A DNA stretch of 56,733 nucleotides from Terriglobia bacterium (GTDB lineage: Bacteria > Pseudomonadota > Alphaproteobacteria > Acetobacterales > Acetobacteraceae). Under the pieces are notes generated by a model that did not search any database, had not been told where the DNA came from, and saw only the letters and a list, made by a program, of their open reading frames with translations. Of this stretch, positions 24,983-29,739 are shown piece after piece (positions within the stretch are counted from its first letter, which is position 1; each line of letters opens with the position of its first letter). The stretch lies in assembly GCA_023511585.1 (NCBI GenBank), contig JAIMBF010000011.1, forward strand, positions 1-56,733, in the 5' to 3' direction. Made by a program: the position numbers and the translations under genes.

Positions 24983-25519
24983 CTAGGCCGCTTCTTCCCG
25001 TCGGTCGCGCATCCGGACATAGGCGAGCCCGGCGTGCTCGGCGCAGTACGGCTTACCAGGCAGCACCTCGGCGTTGCAAAACCGAAATCCAGGCTTACCA
25101 GGGTCCCCGATCGGCCAACAGCAAACGTGCGAGCGCGTGCTCTGATAAGAAATCCGCGTTGACGGCGCGGGTTTGACCGGCACGGATGAGGCGGGCCGCC
25201 GCGCGCGCGTTTCCTCCGACCCTGAAACCTCCGCCCATTGGCCGGCAGCCGCATGCCGAGCGGGAACTTCGGCGCCCGCCGCCGGAGGCTGCGGTTTGGC
25301 TTGCCTGCGGCGGCGCGGACGCGGCTCGGAAGCCGTTGCTGCCGCTTCACCTTGCGTTTCACGCCGGATCGGCGAAGGGCGCGCGGCCAATTGCAGCCGA
25401 TGCGCCTTGCCGATGACCGCGTTTTTCGAGATTCCCAATCTCCGGCCGATTTCGGCGGTCGAAAGTCCCTCTTCCCAAAGTACGCGCAATTGCGCGACTG
25501 TTTCTTCGGTCCACCCCAT
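24983..25519 (-). CDS. gcrA: GcrA cell-cycle transcription regulator
   Basis: The 178-residue protein begins with the GcrA DNA-binding domain MGWTEETVAQLRVLWEEG, STAEIGRRLGISKNAVIGKAHRL, has a basic Ala/Pro/Arg-rich linker, and ends in a Cys/His cluster (HVCCWPIGD, FRFCNAEV, KPYCAEHAGLAYV). GcrA binds sigma70 and methylated GANTC promoters and drives S-phase genes in Caulobacter. The ATG at 25519 is supported by GGAGGA 9 nt upstream. Its promoter and a DnaA box lie just upstream. Confidence 0.95.
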   Translation of the reverse strand: MGWTEETVAQLRVLWEEGLSTAEIGRRLGISKNAVIGKAHRLQLAARPSPIRRETQGEAAATASEPRPRRRRQAKPQPPAAGAEVPARHAAAGQWAEVSGSEETRARRPASSVPVKPAPSTRISYQSTRSHVCCWPIGDPGKPGFRFCNAEVLPGKPYCAEHAGLAYVRMRDRREEAA

Positions 25520-25547
25520 ATCGTGGTCCTCCGCCTGGTTTGACCAC

Positions 25548-25693: not shown

Positions 25694-25945
25694 TCATCCG
25701 GACTGGGCTGTTGTGCTCTGGCCTGCCTTGTTGGCGCTTGCCGCCGCAGTCGGTGCGCTGATATGCCCCGCCGGCTGCTCTACCGATGCTTGCATCGAAG
25801 CATCCGGCTCTTCCGCCAGATTCTTCTTAAACGCTTTGATACCCTTGGCAAAATCGCCCATCAGACTGCTCACCTTCCCGCTGCCGAAAAGCAGCAGGAC
25901 GACCATGAGCACAACCAACCAATGCCAAATGCTGAAACTACCCAT
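25694..25945 (-). CDS. tatA: Twin-arginine translocase subunit TatA
   Basis: The 83-residue protein has the TatA form: short periplasmic start MGSFSIWHW, one membrane helix ([11 protein letters not shown]), the hinge [22 protein letters not shown] as amphipathic helix, and a disordered tail. It oligomerises to let folded proteins pass the inner membrane. The ATG at 25945 has GGAGGG 5-6 nt upstream; the frame is open upstream without family similarity. tatB and tatC are not adjacent. Confidence 0.93.
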
Positions 25946-26065
25946 AATCCCTCCGATCCCGGGACGATACCGGACCAAGGAGTGGAACCGCGACCTTCCG
26001 GGTAGCCTCGAATCTGGGCCAAATGGCGCCGAAGTCAAGCCGTTCCTGCGTTGAGCCGTTTCCGC

Positions 26066-26581
26066 CTATTCGACGGCGGCGCGAGGAGCCTCGGCAAGAA
26101 TGGCTTGGTGTGAAGGTGGTCGGGGCGGAACAATAAAGCCGTAAGTCGGATACTTCGTAACCCCCATTTGACCGACCGGAGGCCACCACACGCGCACCAA
26201 GGTCCAGTCATTTCGCGGGGATACGTCGATAACGGGCTGATCCAGGCTGACCATGCCGGGCGCCCAGTTGGCATGCGAGACCAGGATCTCGCGGGAGGAC
26301 AAGACCGCCGAGACCACCGAGACATGCCCCTCCGGAAGGCGGCGCGTACGGCGGAACACTAAGATACTGCCCACTTCCGGCGTATGGGTTTGCCGATAGA
26401 GCCCTTCCGCCTCTTCCCACCATTCCGCGCTGTTCCCTGCGAGCGTGACATGGGTGAGATGTCGCGCGAAGGGCACGCAATCAATTCGTCCGGCATGCCA
26501 ACTTGTTCCTGCCGGGCCCTGGCTCGGGCGGCTTGCACATCCCGCGAGCAGCAACAGGCCAAGCAGGATGCACGAACGCAT
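26066..26581 (-). CDS. CHAP-domain lipoprotein, probable peptidoglycan amidase/endopeptidase
   Basis: The 171-residue precursor has a lipoprotein signal with lipobox LLAGC (C15). The mature part contains a small CHAP-like cysteine hydrolase domain: nucleophile C35 in RIDCVPFAR and H86 in EGHVSVVSAV, with SILVFRRTRRLPEGH typical of CHAP proteins. It is expected at an envelope membrane, cutting peptidoglycan peptides. Its ATG lies 2 bp after the CaiB-type gene stop, so the two genes are probably co-translated, although no functional link is evident. Confidence 0.82.
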   Translation of the reverse strand: MRSCILLGLLLLAGCASRPSQGPAGTSWHAGRIDCVPFARHLTHVTLAGNSAEWWEEAEGLYRQTHTPEVGSILVFRRTRRLPEGHVSVVSAVLSSREILVSHANWAPGMVSLDQPVIDVSPRNDWTLVRVWWPPVGQMGVTKYPTYGFIVPPRPPSHQAILAEAPRAAVE

Positions 26582-26583
26582 GC

Positions 26584-27765
26584 CTAGCCTTCGCCAAGCA
26601 GAACTTTGCGCACATATTCATTGTGGGCGCCAACCGCCGGCCCGGGCCAGCTTATTACCGTTTCCGGCGGATCGCCGTCGAATCGGATGGCCGGGCCGGG
26701 GTGCAGCGTGCGGCCGATCAGCGGATCTTCCACCTCCAGCACAGAGTAACGGGCGCGGAAATGCGGGTCCGCCACGCAATCGGCGATATCATAAAGCCGG
26801 GAAGCGGGCACATCGGCTAAGCTCAAAATCTCTTCCGCTTCCTTTGCGGTTTTCCCGCTGCACCAGGCACCGATGATCCGATCCAGTTCCTCGACATGCG
26901 CGCAACGCCCGGCATTGGTGGCAAAGCGCGGGTCCTCGGCGAGCTCCGCCTTGCCGATCGCCGCCATCAAGCGGCGGAAGATCGGGTCGGAATTGCCGGC
27001 AATGCAAAGCCATTTGCCGTCGGCACACAAATAGGTGTTGCTGGGGGCAGCTGTCGGGATTCCGGCACCCGTCGGCTGACGAATGCGGCCGTCGAGGGCA
27101 TATTCGGCAAGCATACCTTCCATCAGGCTGAACACGGAATCGACGAGATTAACGTCGATTACCCGCCCCCGCCCGCCGCCGGCCAGATCGCGTTGATAGA
27201 CGGCGGCCAGCACGCCCAGCGCTCCGTAGAGGCCCGCAAGATCGTCGGCGATGGAAATGCCGCACCGGGGCGGCGGCAGGTCTGTGCGTCCGGGATAACC
27301 CGTAAGATGCCGTAACCCGCCCATCGCCTCGCCGATCGCGCCGAACGAGGGTTTGTCGCGGTACGGGCCGTCCTGACCGTAACCCGAGATGCGCGCAATG
27401 ATGAGCCTCGGGTTCAGCGCATGGAGCCGAGACGGCCCAAGCCCAAGCTTTTCCAGCTGGCCGGGGCGGAAGTTTTCAACCAAAACATCGGCGCGCGCGG
27501 CGAGCTTTTCAGCCACGGCAGTTTCGCGTTTGAGATCAAGCTCCACCGAAAGCTTGTTGCGGCCGTGCAGGCTGAACCAGACGGAATGCCCGTGCTTGTG
27601 GGCTCCCCAGCCACGAATCGGATCCCCGCCCGGCGGTTCCACCTTGATGACCTCCGCGCCGAGATCCGCAAGCAGCCGAGTACAAAAAGGGCCGGCAATA
27701 TAGTGGCCGAGCTCCAAAACTTTCAGCCCGACCAGGGGTCCGACGCGGGGTGGCGGTTTCAGCAT
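26584..27765 (-). CDS. CaiB/BaiF family (family III) CoA-transferase
   Basis: The 393-residue protein has the family III words LKVLELGHYIAGPFCTRLLADLG split over GAEVIKVEPP, NKLSVELDLK, VLVENFRPGQLEKLGLG, and the region ISIADDLAGLYGALGVLAAV that carries the catalytic aspartate. Such enzymes move CoA between carboxylic acids; the substrates are not predictable. The ATG at 27765 is chosen because it gives the family N-terminus and a suitable promoter lies 37 bp upstream; the frame runs open 252 bp further without similarity. Confidence 0.9.
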   Translation of the reverse strand: MLKPPPRVGPLVGLKVLELGHYIAGPFCTRLLADLGAEVIKVEPPGGDPIRGWGAHKHGHSVWFSLHGRNKLSVELDLKRETAVAEKLAARADVLVENFRPGQLEKLGLGPSRLHALNPRLIIARISGYGQDGPYRDKPSFGAIGEAMGGLRHLTGYPGRTDLPPPRCGISIADDLAGLYGALGVLAAVYQRDLAGGGRGRVIDVNLVDSVFSLMEGMLAEYALDGRIRQPTGAGIPTAAPSNTYLCADGKWLCIAGNSDPIFRRLMAAIGKAELAEDPRFATNAGRCAHVEELDRIIGAWCSGKTAKEAEEILSLADVPASRLYDIADCVADPHFRARYSVLEVEDPLIGRTLHPGPAIRFDGDPPETVISWPGPAVGAHNEYVRKVLLGEG

Positions 27766-27801
27766 TTCCCACTCTCTGAACAAATTTTCTTGGTTAGAGA
27801 G

Positions 27802-27831
27802 ATTCTGACGAAAAAAGCTTCTCGTTTGCAA
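27802..27831 (-). promoter_or_regulatory. Possible promoter of the CaiB-type gene
   Basis: Minus-strand TTGCAA (27831-27826) and CAGAAT (27807-27802) are 18 bp apart, predicting a start near 27795 and a 30-nt leader. Both elements match consensus at 4 of 6 positions. Confidence 0.35.
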
Positions 27832-27914
27832 GACTTCGTAAACCTGCGCCCGATACTCTTGCTTTGGAAGCCGGATTTCGTCGTGCCGGGTTCCGTCTCC
27901 TCCGTTTGTTGCCT

Positions 27915-27975
27915 CCCTTTCAAGGGCGGAGATGAATCTCTCTCGGGCGGGGAAAGCTTCCCCGCCCCCCTTTTT
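27915..27975 (+). terminator. Hairpin cluster ending in an intrinsic terminator; possible attenuator before DUF302
   Basis: This is the notable content of the 317-bp gap between the divergent CaiB-type and DUF302 genes. Three stems follow each other on the plus strand: CCCTT-TC-AAGGG (27915-27926), GAGAT-GA-ATCTC (27929-27940) and a 10-bp stem GGGCGGGGAA / TTCCCCGCCC (27945-27954 and 27958-27967), then CCC and five T. No gene upstream on this strand needs a terminator. The 6-mer GGGCGG occurs at 27924-27929 and again in the terminator 5' arm, so either copy could pair with CCGCCC at 27962-27967, giving mutually exclusive folds. The reading is either a leader attenuator for DUF302 or the end of a small RNA. 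Confidence 0.5.
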
Positions 27976-28082
27976 CCGCATCGGTCCTTTGCCGCGGCTC
28001 GGGCATCGACCTTCCACCTTGCCCTTCTTACATTACGCATAACGCGCGGGCCGGATTGTCCGCACCCTGGATGGAGGAGAAG

Positions 28083-28469
28083 ATGAGCTATTATTTCGCC
28101 AAAACTCTCGATGTTCCGTTCGATACCGCGATTGCGCGCACGCTCGCGGCGCTTAAGGAGCGAGGGTTCGGCTTGGTTTCGGAAATCGACGTAAAAGAGA
28201 CGCTCAAGCAGAAAATCGGGGTGGAATTTCGCCCCTATCGCATTCTCGGCGCTTGCAACCCCAAGCTTGCGCATCGCGCATTGACGCTGGAAGACAAGGT
28301 TGGGACCATGCTGCCCTGCAATGTTATCGTGCAAGAGCTGGAACCGGGGAAAAGCGAGGTGGCAGCCATCGATCCGGTGGCCTCCATGCAGGCGATTAAC
28401 AATCCGCGTCTTAGAGATTTGGCCGAAGAAGTGCGCCGGGAACTTCAAGCCGTGGTGCAATCGCTATGA
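28083..28469 (+). CDS. DUF302 domain protein
   Basis: The 128-residue protein matches the DUF302 pattern: YYFAKTLDVPFDTAIARTLAALKERG, FRPYRILGACNPKLAHRAL and a central Cys (CNP) and LPCNVIVQE. The family is widespread, small and of unknown function. GGAGGAGAAG directly precedes the ATG at 28083, an excellent ribosome site. It overlaps the reductase gene in an ATGA. A hairpin/terminator cluster lies 108 bp upstream. Confidence 0.88.
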   Translation: MSYYFAKTLDVPFDTAIARTLAALKERGFGLVSEIDVKETLKQKIGVEFRPYRILGACNPKLAHRALTLEDKVGTMLPCNVIVQELEPGKSEVAAIDPVASMQAINNPRLRDLAEEVRRELQAVVQSL

Positions 28470-29032
28470 GCGGAGGGGAAGCGGTTTCGGTTCTCGGCAT
28501 CTGCGGCAGCCTCCGACGCGGCTCTTACAACGCGGCCGCGCTGCGCGCCGCGGAAGAACTGGCCCCCGAAGGCTTACGTATTGAGCAAGCAAGCATTGCC
28601 GAAGTACCGCTTTATAATGAAGACCTGCGGCTTGCTTCCGGGTTCCCGCCTGCGGTGGAAGCGCTTCGGGAAAAAATCCGCGCGGCCGATGCCGTATTGA
28701 TTGCTACCCCGGAATACAATTATTCCGTGCCCGGTGTGTTAAAAAATGCGATCGATTGGATTTCGCGCCCGCCGGAACAGCCGTTCTCGGGCAAGCCCAT
28801 CGCGCTCATGGGCGCCAGTCCCGGCAGGCTCGGCACCGCACGGGCGCAGTATCATTTGCGTCAGATATTCGTGTTTCTCAACGCCTATGTGATGAACCAG
28901 CCGGAGATTTTTATCGCCGACGCCCCTGCCCGATTTGATACGGAAGGCAGACTTGCGGACGAACCGACGCGTTCGCTTTTAAAGACGTTTCTGGTTGCGC
29001 TGCGCGCCTGGGCCCTGCGGTTCAAGCGTTAA
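28466..29032 (+). CDS. NADPH-dependent FMN reductase (YieF/ChrR-like quinone reductase)
   Basis: The 188-residue flavodoxin-fold protein has the FMN phosphate loop GSLRRGSYNAAALRAA and the isoalloxazine site TPEYNYSVPGVLKNAIDWIS, both typical of YieF/ChrR enzymes that reduce quinones, chromate and other electrophiles with NAD(P)H. Its start overlaps the DUF302 stop by four bases, so the two are one translational unit and likely respond to the same stress signal. Confidence 0.92.
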   Translation: MSGGEAVSVLGICGSLRRGSYNAAALRAAEELAPEGLRIEQASIAEVPLYNEDLRLASGFPPAVEALREKIRAADAVLIATPEYNYSVPGVLKNAIDWISRPPEQPFSGKPIALMGASPGRLGTARAQYHLRQIFVFLNAYVMNQPEIFIADAPARFDTEGRLADEPTRSLLKTFLVALRAWALRFKR

Positions 29033-29184: not shown

Positions 29185-29739
29185 TCAATTATCGGCTTTT
29201 TTTATCAGCCCCCTTTTGTTTAAAAGATCGATCAACCCCAAAAGCCATTTGTCTTCCGGCAATGTTGTCTTCTTCGATTTGCGGGGCAGCTTTCTGTAGC
29301 GTACGAAGCTTTGCAACACCTCGTTCCGAACAAATTCTTCCCCCGTGAGAATCTTGATGCCGAGCCCTTTCAGAGCGTTTTGAACCTCGCACGAAGCTTC
29401 GAAGGTGATTACCCATTTCTCGTAATCGGCCTTGTCAACAGCTTCCTTCCCAAAAATACAAGCAAAGTGCTCTTTCACACAGTCCTGAATTTCGCCCGAA
29501 AACTTACCTTTAAATTTTTCTTTGACTTTCTCACGTTCCTGGTTCAGGAACATCGTGGGCTCGCAATGGCGAATCAAAAGCTTCTTTTTTCCCTCGTCTT
29601 GCCATTTCGCGCCCACTACGTCAGGCGACCAGCGTCCCCCTCCTTCGGCAGGGACACCGATATTCGTTGTCGTTACGAACCCTTCGAGGTCCAGCCATTC
29701 AATAACCAATTCCTCCAGCCAGTTCTTCGGAAACGGCAT
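29185..29739 (-). CDS. Orphan lysine-rich protein, possible PD-(D/E)XK-like fold
   Basis: The 184-residue protein has no name I can give with confidence. An N-terminal segment reads WLEELVIEWLDLEGF, then GGGRWSPDVVGAKW and KLLIRHCEPTMF, a helix / Asp-strand / strand order like the start of PD-(D/E)XK nucleases (D in SPDVVG, E in RHCEPT), but the catalytic lysine is not in the standard E-x-K form. The middle is Lys/Glu-rich. Composition is lower in GC and much richer in lysine than the neighbours, suggesting horizontal gain. It has its own strong promoter with a palindrome and GGGAGG as ribosome site, and no partner gene. Confidence 0.7.
   Translation of the reverse strand: MPFPKNWLEELVIEWLDLEGFVTTTNIGVPAEGGGRWSPDVVGAKWQDEGKKKLLIRHCEPTMFLNQEREKVKEKFKGKFSGEIQDCVKEHFACIFGKEAVDKADYEKWVITFEASCEVQNALKGLGIKILTGEEFVRNEVLQSFVRYRKLPRKSKKTTLPEDKWLLGLIDLLNKRGLIKKADN

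Follow-up and report, generated by a model that had tools for sequence, protein, structure and literature searches.

The question raised by this locus is which transcript is ended by a terminator that stands in the gap between two divergent genes. In the window, that is, the whole stretch of 56,733 nucleotides analysed here, this gap measures 317 bp (27766-28082), given an ATG at 27765 for a CoA-transferase gene and at 28083 for a DUF302 gene. Reading of the sequence confirmed the three plus-strand stems that had been described in it, namely CCCTTTCAAGGG (27917-27928), GAGATGAATCTC (27930-27941) and GGGCGGGGAA-AGC-TTCCCCGCCC (27945-27967), the last of which is followed by CCC and then by TTTTT at 27971-27975, together with the two copies of GGGCGG (27924-27929 and 27945-27950) and the CCGCCC at 27962-27967. 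The original prediction held that the terminator ends either a leader or a small RNA, and regarded a stress- or redox-sensing leader of the DUF302 and FMN reductase genes as conceivable. It is the small-RNA branch that is supported by the comparisons reported below: the hairpins are the 3' half of a small RNA gene of about 110 nt, located at about 27866-27975 on the plus strand (Table 1). The hairpins first noticed are thus real and their extent was incomplete, since the element begins some 50 nt upstream of where it had been placed and also comprises a 5' stem (27866-27894) and the motif CTCCTCC (27897-27903).

Table 1. Positions in the window of the small RNA gene, its parts, its putative promoter elements and the surrounding genes.
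Feature	Position	Strand	Basis or remark
Small RNA gene, about 110 nt	27866-27975	+	best window match of models R1 and R2, 27866-27974; presumed 5' end, from homologues
Stem 1, GGAAGCCGG / CCGGGTTCC, one mismatch	27866-27894	+	window fold; same element in homologues
CTCCTCC, anti-Shine-Dalgarno motif	27897-27903	+	homologues have UUUCCUCCC/CUCCCUCC at this place
Second CCTCCC motif, seen in the window copy	27912-27917	+	sequence reading
Two small hairpins of the original prediction, at the place of the homologues' stem 2; stem 2 of the window not recognisable	27917-27941	+	
Terminator stem (27945-27967) and CCCTTTTT tail	27945-27975	+	scan; helix covaries in homologues
Degenerate CtrA-type box GCAAgacttcgTAAA, at -38	27828-27842	+	three mismatches to TTAA-N7-TTAA
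-10-like GATACT	27852-27857	+	by eye; homologues have CATATT near this place
CoA-transferase family III gene, conserved divergent neighbour	26584-27765	-	
CHAP-domain protein gene, conserved neighbour	26066-26581	-	
tatA, conserved neighbour	25694-26038	-	Pfam TatA_B_E from residue 36 of the frame
gcrA (cell-cycle regulator), at a distance of 2.3 kb	24983-25519	-	Pfam GcrA from residue 20; some relatives share the linkage
DUF302 gene, variable downstream neighbour	28083-28469	+	
NADPH-dependent FMN reductase gene	28466-29032	+	

At the level of the downstream genes, a cis-acting attenuator or leader of DUF302 and FMN reductase, whose terminator and antiterminator folds would set stop versus read-through under stress, would account for a same-strand terminator 108 bp ahead of DUF302 and for a second GGGCGG that could pair with the terminator 3' arm, and DUF302 follows the RNA in three more genomes (loci L209, L222 and L235), all from one other genus. 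This redox-leader idea fails because the downstream gene changes and because terminator-like hairpins are rare upstream of DUF302. Among the 81 members of the RNA family defined below (80 loci at 38 bits or more plus the window), 29 are followed by an amidase and only 4 by DUF302, these being the window and the three loci just named. Examination of homologous DUF302 loci, set beforehand as a check of the leader, revealed a terminator-like hairpin upstream in 3 of 83, in every case at least some 240 nt away from the start, and in none similar to that of the window; nor did blastn (E <= 1) find any similarity between the window leader and the upstream stretches of these 83 loci. The set was drawn from named genomes, in which 80 loci were kept of 379 confirmed, plus 5 loci in relatives besides the own one; the comparison used 79 of the 80, as hardly any sequence preceded the gene in one, and all but the weakest of the 5, with upstream stretches of up to 400 nt, a few of them of only 220-370 nt. 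DUF302 was likewise discarded as an anchor, its distribution being patchy and wide and its loci sharing no leader. Regarding the switch itself, computation for the one pairing that had been proposed, that of GGGCGG with the terminator arm, gave a probability of 0.0000 as printed in the window RNA; forcing this pair costs about 14 kcal/mol (-31.8 versus -46.2), and among 80 homologues 4 repeat the first 6 nt of their own terminator arm. Neither a conserved link to the downstream gene nor a conserved and energetically possible antiterminator was found, and a cis-acting attenuator is, in our estimation, very unlikely. Beside the FMN reductase gene, an open frame of 184 aa (29185-29739, minus strand) has no Pfam match.

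The evidence for a stand-alone RNA gene came from the other side of the gap. The search for CoA-transferase orthologues covered 150 genomes from the same family, 77 of which had a match at E <= 1e-80 (the own one included), and the best 29 others were kept; for viral contigs, a search with the CoA-transferase returned nothing. These loci carry, at an about constant distance upstream of the gene, a hairpin and T-run on the opposite strand, and a clear RNA is present at 22 of the 28 testable ones, L122 having been left out as it ends too early. Three of the 28 (L134-L136) are doubtful, with a terminator present, a degenerate motif and genomes that are not among the reported matches of the model described next, and three more (L115, L116 and L137) have no RNA there, the genome of L115 carrying it elsewhere (L234, 51.7 bits). 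A covariance model, R1, was built from 21 of the CoA-transferase-locus RNAs with the window left out. When 299 genomes of the family were searched with it, 105 matched at E <= 0.01, of which 83 remained under the stricter limit of E <= 0.001. A score of at least 38 bits was reached by 80 loci in 79 of the 299 genomes, 58 of these 79 lying outside the training set, with the proviso that related sequences inflate all counts. Members are 91-127 nt long. Among 385 genomes drawn from the class, 10 matched R1 at E <= 0.001; in the six of these loci that were aligned, L271 is plausible, L272 and L274 are doubtful and three are chance-like or terminator-only, and two of the loci outside these six are terminator-only by model range. 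Similarity at the DNA level (the gap against 60 relatives and the RNA against 397 family genomes) was limited to short matches, with no real homologue among those read. The 18-mer CTCTCGGGCGGGGAAAGC at 27940-27957 of the window was rejected as a homology signal: it recurs in several genomes, mostly in what appears by eye to be uvrA, where it encodes an LSGGES-type ABC motif, and was taken as a coincidence of letters. For the family, the support for a conserved small RNA gene is good; for the window copy it is fairly good.

The position of the RNA is also conserved. The CoA-transferase gene lies divergently upstream of it in 43 of the 81 members, and the CHAP gene or tatA takes the place of the CoA-transferase in 22 more; four of the other 16 have under 300 nt of upstream sequence. 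As judged from these genomes, the RNA resides mostly at a tatA - CHAP - CoA-transferase locus, to which it is divergent, in one alphaproteobacterial family, probably the Acetobacteraceae. For the host of the window, the presence of gcrA and CtrA indicates an alphaproteobacterium; its GlmM has 70-80% identity in three genomes of the family, 70% in the acetobacterial genus Roseicella, 59-65% in Bosea, Xanthobacter, Phenylobacterium, Hyphomicrobium, Ensifer and Novosphingobium, and 65% and 57% in Sphingomonas, where the match is in two pieces, which makes the Acetobacteraceae probable. The locus is near genes of cell-cycle regulators (gcrA or ctrA) in some genomes. gcrA is in view in 4 of the 13 longer stretches (the window, L286, L288 and L289) and, among the short ones, in L109, L110, L125 and L253. 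In one genome (G075, contig 79, locus L130) a ctrA gene (85% identity to the query CtrA) is found on the far side of the CoA-transferase gene adjacent to the RNA.

In the family, the fold follows the order stem 1, an anti-Shine-Dalgarno pyrimidine linker (UUUCCUCCC or CUCCCUCC), stem 2 and terminator. Over 94 distinct rows, which include weak and minus-strand matches and whose alignment to the terminator helix itself favours that helix, 96.9% of the cells of the terminator helix are paired as compared to 83.3% after shuffling (0 of 500 shuffles as high), double-sided changes occur in 8 of 10 pairs and the covariation score reaches 0.428 versus 0.165. Two subgroups of 32 and 25 sequences, picked by motif type and aligned with MAFFT, with the structure read from the alignments, show pairing in 83.8% and 93.5% of cells, respectively; pairs with double changes number 18 of 24 in the first and 8 of 22 in the second. 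These double changes are distributed over stem 1 (4 of 7 pairs), stem 2 (7 of 7) and terminator (7) in the first subgroup, and over stem 1 (1 of 7), stem 2 (2 of 5) and terminator (5) in the second; stem 1 of the first, UUUCCUCCC-bearing subgroup has only 73.1% of its cells paired. Transcription from the plus strand is favoured because on this strand G-U off-pairs outnumber A-C ones (87 versus 47 in A3 plus A4, mostly A4, and 33 versus 8 in the A2 terminator) and because of the T-run. The linker motif takes the form UUUCCUCCC in 36 of 80 members, ACUCCCUCC or ACUCCUCC in 26 and another CCUCC in 10, with none of these in 8. Folding of its flanks in 77 of the 81 members, the 4 without a recognised motif having been dropped, indicated that the stretches on both sides fold better than their shuffles, with a mean z of -2.2 on the 5' side and of -2.5 on the 3' side (74 measurable members), and the motif itself is fully open in 42 of the 77 minimum-energy folds.

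Comparison with known RNAs provided no ready assignment. At gathering score, neither the window nor any of 20 homologous loci matched Rfam, and at relaxed E its 9 matches on the gap are all at chance level and far below the cut-offs. The literature search, whose coverage is thin for subscription papers, returned no description of the family, and the accessible part of an RNA-seq paper on Gluconobacter oxydans (PMC5756330) does not describe the RNA. The closest resemblance is to alphaR8 (RF00519 suhB/mmgR, Sinorhizobium MmgR, Caulobacter SisA-D). As far as the accessible part of the source goes, alphaR8 is characterised by a single-stranded 10-mer, UUUCCUCCCU, lying 3' of a weak hairpin, an anti-Shine-Dalgarno signature that is the pairing site common to SisA-D, for which no conserved promoter motif is reported there (PMC12559287). 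The family described here likewise consists of stand-alone genes in which UUUCCUCCC follows a 5' hairpin and an intrinsic terminator lies 3' of the motif. That the RNA is a diverged member of alphaR8 would explain this single-stranded motif between 5' hairpin and terminator, the 11.9 bits that RF00519 scores on a good member (L193) on the RNA's own strand, and the fact that R2, which models the three stems of the UUUCCUCCC subgroup and was built with the window left out, also picks up two true RF00519 members in the same genome. However, 11.9 bits are far below the cut-off of 41, and unlike alphaR8 the present family has an additional stem 2 with compensatory changes between motif and terminator, spans 91-127 nt versus the 77 positions of the RF00519 model, sits mostly at one locus and has a CtrA-type box in most members. 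On score and on the extra stem, membership in alphaR8 is judged improbable. As to the 10-mer, the form UUUCCUCCC occurs in the 36 members counted above, and in the window CUCCUCC is paired in its own minimum-energy fold. The comparison suggests that the alphaR8-type anti-Shine-Dalgarno motif is found on more than one RNA scaffold. The two genuine RF00519 members of the same genome are L281:1494-1566 (minus strand, 49.8 bits) and L282:1508-1580 (plus strand, 47.1 bits), on contigs 161 and 119, and L284 and L283, also of this genome, look like further short CCUCC/UUCC small RNAs below the Rfam cut-off. A CCUCC-type anti-Shine-Dalgarno motif is also shared with other alphaproteobacterial small RNAs, the CcsR/cuckoo RNAs (RF02791 CcsR1) and SmelA075/SmelA099. 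According to the part of the source at hand, the motif of the latter two, CCUCCUCCC, is in hairpin loops (PMC3927594), whereas here it forms the linker between two stems, and RF02791 scores 11 bits on L193 versus a cut-off of 65.3.

The window copy itself is a divergent member of the family, with a poor stem 2 and a poor promoter box. On the window alone, both models place their best match at 27866-27974, R1 with 22.6 bits (E 0.0011; next best 15.9 bits) and R2 with 25.7 bits (E 0.00026; next best 14.3 bits). In the R1 search of the 299 family genomes the window's own genome was absent from the reported matches, and the R2 search of that whole genome, whose loose first look was incomplete, did not report the window locus and gave other loci of up to 35.3 bits. 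The scan found 1 terminator-like site versus a mean of 1.1 in shuffles, so that the count of bare terminator patterns is not above chance and the evidence beyond chance is comparative. The predicted local fold of 27880-27978 has a modest stability (z = -2.08), matched by 5 of 200 shuffles. CTCCTCC, paired in the minimum-energy fold of this copy, is 14% unpaired, and stem 2 is not recognisable in its R2 match. This low model score, the unclear stem 2 and the degenerate promoter box are what would be expected if the copy were a decayed relic of the RNA gene, or the terminator a product of chance or a remnant of a lost gene in a divergent gap. No other genome of the window's genus was met in the searches. 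Nevertheless, three elements are kept in the right order and at the right distance from the CoA-transferase gene (101 nt), namely a stem 1 whose pairing has a single mismatch, a CCUCC motif and a terminator of 10 perfect base pairs with its T-run, making chance or decay an unlikely explanation. Considered as a whole, 27866-27975 (+) is quite probably a stand-alone gene for a trans-acting small RNA of about 110 nt, a divergent member of a family kept mostly at one locus, and would block ribosome-binding sites, perhaps under CtrA.

In agreement with the remark in the original prediction that no clear promoter could be found, the sigma-70 scan gave no plus-strand site. The stretches upstream of the RNA contain instead TTAA-N7-TTAA, which we take to be the CtrA box; such boxes usually overlap the -35 region. 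With at most one mismatch it occurs in 23 of 81 upstream stretches versus 3.4 per shuffled set, and with at most two in 63 of 81 versus 20.7 per shuffled set and 0.3 when stretches were drawn at random from the same loci. Boxes lie between -45 and -31 in 57 of the 63 cases, and near -38 in most members. In the window, an equally poor alternative match begins one base before 27828. The genome of the window has a CtrA (NF045991, 363.8 bits; cut-off 350), which is also clearly present, at 71% identity or more, in 10 of the 14 other genomes tested; it was found in G106, G134, G079 and G033 as well. Among the 14, no clear CtrA was detected in G004, G100 and G160, all of which carry the RNA, and the best ctrA-like match in G086 (contig 1:2264463-2264945) has two in-frame TAA stops. 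Boxes with 1-2 mismatches are kept in these four genomes (L177, L250, L251 and L232, and again L234). The carriers without a clear CtrA either weaken the CtrA reading or reflect recent loss of the gene or incomplete assemblies. Control of the RNA by CtrA is plausible.

The mechanism suggested by this arrangement would be as follows. The RNA would be transcribed from its own promoter, with a start near 27866, and in most members this promoter may be controlled by CtrA through the box near -38. The C/U-rich linker would pair with the purine-rich ribosome-binding sites of target mRNAs and repress them, as proposed for alphaR8, pairing at ribosome sites being likely as read from the motif. Transcription would finish at the terminator, and the downstream gene would therefore not be a target in cis. 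A precedent for part of this scheme is CcnA of Caulobacter crescentus, which is described, in the part of the source available, as an RNA of 182 nt in the replication origin with a CCCC loop, a C-rich stretch reported to bind the G-rich region of ribosome-binding sites, a CtrA box at 23 bp from its start and the ctrA and gcrA mRNAs as targets (PMC8959179). The RNA described here likewise has a C-rich candidate pairing stretch and, in most members, a putative CtrA box in the promoter (with three mismatches in the window); it differs from what is reported of CcnA in its length of about 110 nt and in its structure, and lies beside tatA/CHAP/CoA-transferase. A more ambitious and still doubtful reading is that of a family-wide small RNA under CtrA whose anti-Shine-Dalgarno linker would tie the state of the cell cycle to translation, with gcrA among its targets, as an independent counterpart of CcnA on another scaffold. 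A structurally conserved small RNA family with no Rfam match, whose locus is mostly constant and adjoins tatA and sometimes gcrA or ctrA, would give this bacterial family, probably the Acetobacteraceae, a defined RNA regulator with CtrA as candidate controller and a candidate pairing site. Inspection by eye of the window gcrA gene showed that its ribosome site, CGGAGGA at 25527-25533 on the minus strand, is complementary to UCCUCCG at 27898-27904 on the plus strand.
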